DNA from: Hyphomicrobium sp.
GTDB taxonomy: Bacteria; Pseudomonadota; Alphaproteobacteria; Rhizobiales; Hyphomicrobiaceae
Direction: 5' to 3'
Length of the DNA: 64,000 bases
Assembly (NCBI RefSeq): GCF_009026145.1
Contig: NZ_WBUE01000014.1
Coordinates: forward strand, 1-64,000
Shown here: piece by piece, positions 1,449 to 9,174 of the stretch
Layout of the letters: each line of letters starts with the position of its first letter
How positions within the stretch are numbered: the first letter of the stretch is position 1
Translations under genes and position numbers: made by a program
The notes under the pieces: model-generated
The model's input: the letters and a program-made list of their open reading frames with translations, nothing else
Told to the model about the DNA's origin: nothing
Databases searched by the model: none

Positions 1449-2144
1449 ATGGCCGTATCATGGACGCTTGAGAAGGAGCTGTGCGGGCTCGCCGAGGCGA
1501 ACTCCGTCGGCGCAGCGCTGTGGCGGCTCGGATTGACCGAGCATGCCGAGAGTGCCGTCAGGCTGGAGGAGAGGCACGGCTGGCGGCGCGGCGGCGCGGA
1601 AACATACGTTTATCGCTTCAAGGTCATAAGCGCAGAGACGACACGCGATGTCCTCTTGAAGGCCGTCACCGCTTTCTCGACCTCGCGGACGCTCAATGAG
1701 ATCGCCGACGAGTGGGTGCACCGGCGGCAACTGCTGGCGCAAGGCGGCATCTCTACGCCAACGCTCTATTTCGCCGGCCGCGCGCTTTTGGTGGAGCAGG
1801 ACGTGGGGGAAAAGCTCGCCTCCTGGCTGCGGCGCAGCCCGAGCAACAGCATACAATTAACCGATCAGGTGTTTCGCTTGGCCGCCGTCATGGACAGGCA
1901 TGGCTTCGCCCCTATGTGCGTGTTCAACGGGCTGCGGACCGATGGAGAGGCCGTCTATGTCGTCGACTTTGGCCAGGACCTTGGCCCGCCGGGTGTTAGA
2001 CGGCGGCGCGGCAAGGGCCTCCTGCCGGAAGCCAAGCGCTGGCTGGCGAGCGTCGGCCAGCAGAGGATCGACCCGTGCCGGGCAGAGGCCGTGTATGCGT
2101 TTCACTTGGGCGGCGAGGCCAAGGATGAGCAAGGACCATCTTAA
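1449..2144 (+). CDS. kinase-like (APH/protein-kinase fold-like) protein with DFG motif
   Basis: Translation contains YRFKV...DVLLKAV (beta3-Lys-like), GISTPTLYFAGRALLVEQDVGEKL (hinge-like) and VYVVDFGQDLG (DFG). Confidence 0.6.
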   Translation: MAVSWTLEKELCGLAEANSVGAALWRLGLTEHAESAVRLEERHGWRRGGAETYVYRFKVISAETTRDVLLKAVTAFSTSRTLNEIADEWVHRRQLLAQGGISTPTLYFAGRALLVEQDVGEKLASWLRRSPSNSIQLTDQVFRLAAVMDRHGFAPMCVFNGLRTDGEAVYVVDFGQDLGPPGVRRRRGKGLLPEAKRWLASVGQQRIDPCRAEAVYAFHLGGEAKDEQGPS

Positions 2145-3150
2145 GCGCGACATCATCAGGGCCGTGACCGACGTGAGCGCGGCGGAGCAGCCCGCCGACC
2201 AATGGCTTGTCCCGCTCGGCGAGCGCCAGCCCGACAAACGCAATCACTTCGTCCTCTTCTTGAAGCCCGAGCTGCTGGCCGTGCGCGAGGGCGTGAAGCT
2301 CGGCGCCATCCTCGACCTCATCGCCGCCGCCCTACGCAAGCACGGAGTCGAGACCGGCGCCGTACGCGTGCTCAACGGGGCCTACCTCGCGCAGCACAAA
2401 ATCATGGAAGAGCACTACGGCGTGATCAATCGCGCCTCCCGTTTGGGACGCGCTGCCCTCTCCCCGCCGACGCTGCAGAAGCTCGAGGCCGAGTGCCCGG
2501 GGATAAAGGGCATTCTCGGAGCGCACGAGTTCCTGCAGCGCTATCCGGAGGTGTCCGCGTTCGCCCTCAACGTCATCGTCGACAGCCTCGGATCGAAGAA
2601 GATCGCCAGCGGCAAATATTACAGCGTCCTCAACGTAGCGGGCGAGCGGATGGTCGTTCTCAACGCCTTCCACCCGCAGCAGCTGCTCCACTACACGCGT
2701 CCCGGCAAAGCGCTCGTGGTGTTCGAATGCTGGTCCGATACCGACTGGGCGGTGCTGAGGCAGGAGATGACTGGCGCGACCGACCCCGCCCGCGCCGCCG
2801 AGGGATCGATCCGGCAAACGTTGCGGGCGAGGAGCCACGAGCTTGGCCTGCCGGAGGTCACGACGGCAACCAATGGCGTGCACTGCTCCGCCGGGCCGTT
2901 CGAAGCGATGCTCGAATACTGCCGCTTCTTCTCCGATCACGCCGGCAGCGCAGTCATCCGCCCGAGCGCGACGCCGTTCGGGCACATGCTGCTCGAGCGC
3001 GGCCTGCGGCAGAAGGACATTGCCGCCCTGGCCAAGAACCCGCTGCTGGGCGAGGGCAGCGCGGCGGCCTACGTTTTCAATCAGACGGAGGATAAGAACT
3101 CGGGCTTTGCCGCCGACCTGCTTGCCGAGGCGATGCGCAACGCTGCCTAG
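2125..3150 (+). CDS. nucleoside-diphosphate-kinase-like protein with large insertion
   Basis: In-frame ATG at 2125 inside ORF 1900..3150. FVLFLKPELL, GATDPARAAEGSIRQTL and NGVHCSAGPFEAMLEYCRFF match the NDPK KP, GAT(N/D)PxxAxxGTxR and N-x-x-H-x-S-x-x-x-x-E signatures. Confidence 0.7.
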   Translation: MSKDHLKRDIIRAVTDVSAAEQPADQWLVPLGERQPDKRNHFVLFLKPELLAVREGVKLGAILDLIAAALRKHGVETGAVRVLNGAYLAQHKIMEEHYGVINRASRLGRAALSPPTLQKLEAECPGIKGILGAHEFLQRYPEVSAFALNVIVDSLGSKKIASGKYYSVLNVAGERMVVLNAFHPQQLLHYTRPGKALVVFECWSDTDWAVLRQEMTGATDPARAAEGSIRQTLRARSHELGLPEVTTATNGVHCSAGPFEAMLEYCRFFSDHAGSAVIRPSATPFGHMLLERGLRQKDIAALAKNPLLGEGSAAAYVFNQTEDKNSGFAADLLAEAMRNAA

Positions 3151-3160
3151 AACCTGCGCT

Positions 3161-3219
3161 GGCAGGTCTGCTCCAACCGCCACCCGGTGACGCGGCCGCT
3201 CGCGCCCGCACGCCATCGT
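3161..3219 (-). pseudogene. remnant of the C-terminus of a paralogue of the 3786..4061 gene
   Basis: Near-identical to 3791..3849; minus-strand translation GRVTGWRLEQTCQ matches the C-terminus CRVTGWRLEQTCQ of the downstream gene. Confidence 0.55.
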
Positions 3220-3225
3220 CACGTC

Positions 3226-3253
3226 CACTATTCGCAAGGCACTATTCGCAAGG
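3226..3253. repeat. 14-bp tandem duplication CACTATTCGCAAGG x2
   Basis: Exact tandem copies at 3226-3239 and 3240-3253. Confidence 0.9.
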
Positions 3254-3685
3254 GACTTGGAGCGTCTTTCCGATCTCCGCAAAGTACCTCGAGCAAAGCT
3301 CGCGCGCCGCTGGCTTGGGTGGAGTCTTGGTGCCGCGGCTCGCCGGCGCGGTCGCTGGCGACGCCGGTTTGGGCAGCTCCGCTGGTTTGGCCTCTACTGT
3401 CGGCTCCTCCGCAGGTGCTTGAGCCTCTCCGCCATTGCACGGGCCGAGGAGAGTCTGCTCCGTGAGCTTGCCGTAGAAGTCGACGTGCAGGTGATAGCGC
3501 TGACCGTCGCGGCAAGCATCGAGCTTGAACGGGGGCTTGGTCCTCTGGAACTCGAGCTGCTCGTAACCCTGCTCGGTCAGCTCGCGGCGCACACGCTCGA
3601 CGCCGTGGGCATAGGCAGGGGCACTCCCACCCAGCGCAAAGACGACCAGAGCTCCGGCAGCCAGCTTTGCACGTACATCAGCCAT
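3242..3685 (-). CDS. hypothetical secreted protein
   Basis: ORF with signal peptide MADVRAKLAAGALVVFALGGSAPAYA, then YEQLEFQRTKPPFKLDACRDGQRYHLHVDFYGKL. Confidence 0.65.
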   Translation of the reverse strand: MADVRAKLAAGALVVFALGGSAPAYAHGVERVRRELTEQGYEQLEFQRTKPPFKLDACRDGQRYHLHVDFYGKLTEQTLLGPCNGGEAQAPAEEPTVEAKPAELPKPASPATAPASRGTKTPPKPAARELCSRYFAEIGKTLQVPCE

Positions 3686-8538: not shown

Positions 8539-9174
8539 TCAGGCGCTGCCATCCGTTTGCGGCCCGATGCGTCGCCCGACGGCGACGAGTGCCGCCACCA
8601 GCGCGAGATAGATCGCGATCAGCCCGGCGACGTTCACCAGCGCGCGCGGGTAGCCAAGCTCGGCGACGTCGATGAAGGGATAGGGATACCAGCCACTCAT
8701 GGCGCCGTGGATGAGCGTCCAGCCGACGTAGGCGAGTGGAAATTCGAGCGAAGCAAAGCCGACGCTCCAGTGGACCTCGCGCTTAGTCACGAACAGCGCC
8801 CAGTCGAGTACGAACAACGGTGGCGTCACGTAGTGCAGCGTGCGCTCGAAGTAGAGCGGCCAGCCCTGACGCTGGCTGAGATCGCGCAACAGCAGATAGT
8901 AGATCGTCGCCACCATGATGATGTAGCCGGCAATCGCCGTGCGCACCGACGGGCGCGCCAGGAACTGCCCGAGCGAAGAGCGCGGCGCGATCAGCGGCAC
9001 GAGCAAGGCGGCCGCCGCAAGGAGGTTGGCGAGGATGGTGAAGAAGCTGAAGAACTTGATCGACGAGACGCCAAGACCGTTCAGCGTCTCATAGCGCACC
9101 AGCAGCCCGTACTGCATGGCGACGGCGAACACGGTGAAGGCCCCCGCAGCGGCGCGGTAGATCGTGCATAGCAT
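8539..9174 (-). CDS. Pr6Pr family membrane protein
   Basis: Multi-pass hydrophobic protein with LNGLGVSSIKFFSFFTILANLL and HGAMSGWYPYPFIDV motifs. Confidence 0.75.
   Translation of the reverse strand: MLCTIYRAAAGAFTVFAVAMQYGLLVRYETLNGLGVSSIKFFSFFTILANLLAAAALLVPLIAPRSSLGQFLARPSVRTAIAGYIIMVATIYYLLLRDLSQRQGWPLYFERTLHYVTPPLFVLDWALFVTKREVHWSVGFASLEFPLAYVGWTLIHGAMSGWYPYPFIDVAELGYPRALVNVAGLIAIYLALVAALVAVGRRIGPQTDGSA

Follow-up and report, generated by a model that had tools for sequence, protein, structure and literature searches.

Nucleoside-diphosphate kinases (NDPKs) are housekeeping enzymes that replenish nucleoside triphosphates, and they ignore the base of their substrate. The 64,000-nucleotide stretch of Hyphomicrobium sp. 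DNA analysed here (the window) encodes on its + strand, at 2125-3150, a protein of 341 aa (P0001) that resembles these enzymes, while canonical NDPKs (PF00334; NF001908) are about 140 aa long. The same genome carries a canonical NDPK elsewhere, which scores 179.8 bits, so P0001 is not the housekeeping enzyme. This raises the question of what an additional, oversized NDPK-like protein is for. Here, we describe its relationship to NDPKs, the placement of its extra sequence, and the genes that surround it and its relatives.

The P0001 gene and its relationship to NDPKs

The first-pass annotation described a 341-aa product with KP, GAT and NxxHxS-type motifs; the ORF and all of the motifs quoted are present. 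The ATG at 2125 is supported as the start codon because the open frame extends only a few codons upstream of it, and because an orthologue in a sister species of the same genus (G003; 80% identity) opens at the same Met. Substitutions between the two orthologues number 48, 31 and 133 at codon positions one, two and three, and dN/dS is ~0.16, indicating purifying selection and thus a real, constrained gene on the + strand. We rejected an antisense ORF (2332-3282) as a shadow, with substitutions that track the + strand frame.

Several comparisons place P0001 among the NDPKs. The Pfam NDK model (PF00334) matches residues 198-271 at E = 5.1e-5 and 23.6 bits, which is below its curated cut-off of 27 bits, and the NDPK models of NCBIfam find this region as well (E 3.3e-5), also under their curated cut-offs. 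When a profile of five homologues is compared with the PDB, all 21 matches at E <= 10 are NDPKs, the best being 1xqi (5.5e-5) followed by 4di6 (0.0023); we take these to be the NDPKs of Pyrobaculum aerophilum (195 aa) and Borrelia (190 aa), respectively. Profile-profile alignment of the whole protein with NDPKs gives E ~2e-7. Split in two, the C-terminal half scores 51.9 against NDPKs in hhalign (column shuffles 10.4 +/- 2.1, maximum 17.7) and, as judged from these alignments, is unmistakably NDPK-like. The N-terminal half, which includes the KP motif and the helix of Tyr52, reaches 18.3 (shuffles 9.5 +/- 2.1); its likeness appears supported, but more weakly, as 1 in 200 shuffles scores as high. 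The motifs also follow one another along P0001 in the order of a canonical NDPK. An AlphaFold model with the single sequence as input was uninformative on a ferredoxin-like (beta4-beta1-beta3-beta2) fold, with a pLDDT of 37.6 and a pTM of 0.27. By sequence, P0001 belongs to the NDPK superfamily, and the kinship first proposed from its motifs is borne out by Pfam, PDB-profile and hhalign scores above chance.

The family is rare. It occurs in two of the eight genomes of the genus (the window genome and G003) and beyond these in one of 385 sampled genomes of the class (G464, 1.1 Mb), with no further members in the genome samples of the order and phylum. Two more relatives are plasmid-borne, one in Parageobacillus caldoxylosilyticus and one in Paraburkholderia sp. 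PGU19. This brings the family to five sequences, in which P0001 has one close relative (80%) and three distant ones (26–31% identity). Genome-wide and viral pattern scans with P0001 and its alignment returned no relatives, in phages or otherwise, and weak matches of 18–22 bits in four genomes (G122, G336, G330 and G879) proved to be canonical NDPKs. PADLOC gave no match and PHROGs none for P0001 or its neighbor P0002, so neither shows signs of being a defence or phage gene.

Active site and inserted segments

Residues and inserts were positioned on an alignment of the five family proteins, in which identity falls to 26% (Table 1; human NME numbering). P0001 shares with canonical NDPKs, in the same order, the KP motif, Tyr52, Phe60, GATDP..GSIR, NxxHxS and the FF helix. 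Seven active-site residues (K47, Y98, F182, R230, N250, H253 and S255) are invariant in all five proteins, and they include the counterparts of Lys12, Tyr52 and Arg105, which bind ribose and phosphate in NDPKs. Retention of the catalytic His, Asn and Lys, as claimed at first, thus extends to every known relative, together with the Arg and the insertion. P0001 and its G003 orthologue retain the Thr94 and Glu129 equivalents, which the three distant homologues have lost. The Arg88 equivalent is ambiguous: R212 is offset from the aligned column by one residue, and the Parageobacillus protein has no Arg there. It is highly improbable that P0001 is a catalytically dead or decaying relic of an NDPK, a view that would fit its sparse presence in the genus and its sub-threshold Pfam score; the dN/dS, a frame that is intact in two species and the seven invariant positions all speak against it.

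Table 1. Positions of features in the window and of gene clusters around distant homologues
Feature	Position	Strand	Remarks
P0002, 231 aa, family unassigned	1449..2144	+	same two genomes only as P0001
P0001/P0002 gene overlap, 20 bp	2125..2144	+	direct reading; conserved in G003
P0001 N-terminal extension, ~36 aa (residues 1-40)	2125..2244	+	absent in Paraburkholderia member
Beta-1 KP motif FVLFLKPE, residues 42-49	2248..2271	+	K47 = Lys12; K47, P48 invariant in five; hhalign
Y98 (= Tyr52)	2416..2418	+	invariant in five; hhalign N-half
Insert, ~76 aa (about residues 102-178), turn between two nucleotide-cleft helices	2428..2658	+	spacing in alignment
F182-H-P184; F182 = Phe60 (base clamp)	2668..2676	+	F182, P184 invariant; hhalign
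GATDPARAAEGSIR, residues 217-230	2773..2814	+	T219 = Thr94, R230 = Arg105
Lengthened Kpn loop, residues 231-249	2815..2871	+	R-N spacing 20 vs 10 canonical
NGVHCS, residues 250-255	2872..2889	+	N250 = Asn115, H253 = catalytic His118, S255 = Ser120; N, H, S invariant
E264 (= Glu129; His + 11)	2914..2916	+	read from alignment
C-terminal extension, residues 276-341 (~66 aa)	2950..3147	+	G286, L289, L302, F318, E322 invariant
MIPS-MAT-SDR cluster	L006, NZ_CP040554.1 about 9.3-20.2 kb
MIPS-MAT-SDR cluster	L026:13755-20266 (NZ_AP023181.1)
MIPS-MAT-SDR cluster	L013:8041-17819 (G464)

P0001 differs from a canonical NDPK in its 76-aa insert in the cleft hairpin, some 10 additional residues in the Kpn loop, and its N- and C-terminal extensions. 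The first-pass annotation saw an NDPK split by extra sequence, with an insertion of about 100 aa and a C-terminal extension. The large insertion and the extension (~66 aa) stand, but a mere split understates what has changed: the added sequence resolves into four separate additions of ~36, ~76, ~10 and ~66 aa. Y98 and F182 are 84 residues apart in P0001 and 80–85 in all homologues, compared with 8 in the genome's own NDPK. The hairpin insert measures 72–77 residues across the family and the Kpn loop addition 9–10. P0001 therefore has neither the compact cleft hairpin (84 vs 8) nor the standard Kpn loop (20 vs 10) of a canonical NDPK.

In NDPKs, helices 44-52 and 60-70 border the nucleotide cleft, and the base is clamped by Phe60 and by Val112 of the Kpn loop (PMC7461546, PMC10253429). 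Because the insert occupies the turn between the two cleft helices and the Kpn loop is longer, the base clamp is, judging from the alignment, rebuilt on both of its sides, with the phosphotransfer site kept.

Enlargement as such also occurs in other NDPKs. In the Pyrobaculum and Borrelia enzymes, the Arg105 and Asn115 equivalents are 20 residues apart, just as in the P0001 family, and 1xqi is longer by ~33 residues in the stretch from the KP motif to the second cleft helix. P0001 could accordingly be a second NDPK that acts on ordinary NDPs, in which the insert and tails serve oligomerization, stability or regulation, and almost the whole set of active-site residues is indeed retained in the window protein, the Thr94, Phe60 and Glu129 equivalents among them. 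We nevertheless consider this unlikely. A canonical NDPK is already encoded in the host genome, the family is very sparsely distributed, and its distant members sit in apparently pathway-specific clusters (see below). Both 1xqi and 4di6 are annotated as NDPKs, but their insert is much smaller and they lack a C-terminal extension of domain size; the insert of P0001 exceeds the extra residues of 1xqi in the same interval more than twofold, and lies in the base-binding hairpin.

The partner gene P0002 and the window locus

P0002 is found solely beside P0001, in the window genome and G003, and is likewise constrained (dN/dS ~0.12). The overlap between the two genes probably reflects translational coupling. 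P0002 has no significant family match; its orthologue matches RIO1 at E = 0.088, below the cut-off. It contains VLLK, Glu and VDFG(-like) motifs, and no HxD catalytic loop was seen, which together hint, very faintly, at a possible atypical or pseudo-kinase-like fold. P0002 was also considered as a homologue of the APH-like kinases found in the clusters of the distant relatives, an idea that gained no support, with no similarity detected.

The P0002-P0001 pair lies upstream of a HAD hydrolase gene that occurs in all eight genomes of the genus. In G003, the pair adjoins the counterpart of the gene at 8539-9174, which in the window is ~5.4 kb away with regulators in between, and in four other species the pair is absent from the stretch examined. 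These differences in placement and presence indicate that the two genes form a unit in a genus-variable locus, in which their pairing is kept although the flanking genes differ.

Such a close association might suggest a signalling or regulatory role, with P0001 as a phosphohistidine protein that forms a phosphorelay or protein-histidine-kinase pair with P0002, and with the insert and tail binding the partner. Protein-histidine kinase activity has been reported for NME proteins (PMC7461546). Together with the hint of a kinase-like fold in P0002 and a gene overlap that persists in the same two genomes despite differing flanks, this gives the idea some footing. It remains quite unlikely in our judgement, as the insert is also present in distant members that have no P0002, and P0002 itself shows neither a significant family match nor detected similarity to the kinases encoded near the distant members.

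Distant relatives and the predicted substrate

All three distant homologues are encoded in clusters with a MIPS (inositol-phosphate-synthase) homologue, a divergent archaeal-type methionine adenosyltransferase (MAT, or SAM synthetase), one or two short-chain dehydrogenases (SDRs) and a NUDIX protein (Table 1). Among the three loci, which come from Bacillota, beta- and alphaproteobacterial records, the MIPS proteins share 41–46% identity, the MATs 41–43% and the SDRs 39–47%. The clusters also encode phosphatases, of the SurE or histidine-phosphatase type, and in two of the three a P-loop kinase. Their MATs keep the GHPD, DK and GRGN motifs and have in common HHWFDK at a site that reads HHN-x-DK in canonical and Streptomyces forms. 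Literature searches in an open-access library found no description of such a MIPS-MAT-SDR-NDPK-like cluster or of this NDPK variant, and the recurring cluster is thus apparently undescribed.

Some of these loci have neighbors of interest in their own right. The Parageobacillus plasmid is conjugative and, per annotation, carries a Pycsar-type defence pair of effector and nucleotide cyclase (L025:26638-28160, NZ_CP040554.1). Near its cluster (L006:4930-6367 and L025:6254-7338) are a gene for an HPr-kinase-like protein (by reading, with no Pfam match) and a PqqD-family gene; these are reminiscent of RiPP tailoring, and may belong to the same locus as the cluster or to a neighboring one. Archaeal-type MATs also occur in apparent biosynthetic clusters on three Streptomyces plasmids, NBC_00015, NBC_01334 and NBC_01304 (L022, L023 and L024), together with a Gfo/Idh/MocA oxidoreductase and a sugar-phosphate isomerase, and in two of them also a glycosyltransferase, a carbamoyltransferase and a NUDIX protein.

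An analogy for the MIPS-containing clusters is found in aristeromycin biosynthesis, where the MIPS orthologue Ari2 converts fructose 6-phosphate into a five-membered cyclitol phosphate (PMC11188666). Like that pathway, the distant clusters carry a MIPS homologue, dehydrogenases and kinases. By this likeness, which is one of analogy only, their product may be a nucleotide or SAM analogue derived from a cyclitol, and the enlarged NDPK may act on a diphosphate specific to the cluster. No Inos-1-P_synth matches were found in the window genome or in G003, neither of which has a MIPS-MAT-SDR cluster; the substrate logic for P0001 is thus borrowed from relatives of 26–31% identity. The window genome has two MATs away from P0001, both of the canonical archaeal type, and G003 has none. 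We rejected the two as parts of a split cluster, as they are of canonical type and next to PPK2 in duplicated regions. These regions (C10:159000-170000 and C29:30500-41500) are closely similar, each with PPK2, archaeal-type MAT, ABC ATPase, permease and thiolase genes, which suggests either a duplication or that the assembly (5.3% contamination) contains two related strains.

Taken together, we lean, with some reservation, towards P0001 being a catalytically competent phosphohistidine phosphotransferase of the NDPK superfamily that, instead of the ordinary NDPs, accepts the diphosphate of a non-canonical nucleotide or a nucleotide-like (e.g. cyclitol/carbocycle-type) compound. Following the ping-pong route of NDPKs, a donor NTP would phosphorylate His253, and phospho-His253 would pass the phosphate on to the acceptor diphosphate. 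In place of the base clamp, the 76-aa hairpin insert together with the lengthened Kpn loop would determine the new specificity. The first-pass annotation had suggested a different substrate, and this is now better founded: with the insert at the base-binding site and distant relatives in biosynthetic-type clusters, P0001 probably acts on an unusual nucleotide-like compound. The substrate itself we infer, as we do the activity of P0001 and the idea that it works with P0002 in a pathway particular to the window. Against this stand a family of five known sequences with a single close relative of P0001, the lack of the MIPS cluster in the window genome and G003, the loss of the Thr94 and Glu129 equivalents in the distant members and the ambiguous Arg88 equivalent.

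More speculatively, the P0001 family could comprise dedicated last-step kinases for unnatural nucleotides. In the clusters of the distant members, a MIPS-derived carbocycle would be built into a nucleotide analogue, raised to the triphosphate by the P-loop kinase and the enlarged NDPK, and then turned into a SAM analogue by the modified MAT, with the window pair as a reduced, re-purposed offshoot. We give this scheme only a slim chance of being right as a whole. A family with a rebuilt base clamp and an untouched phosphotransfer site would offer a natural case for testing how selectivity arises in an unselective enzyme. The distant members, in turn, mark a recurring, apparently undescribed metabolite cluster with a modified SAM synthetase, a starting point in the search for new analogues of nucleotides or SAM.
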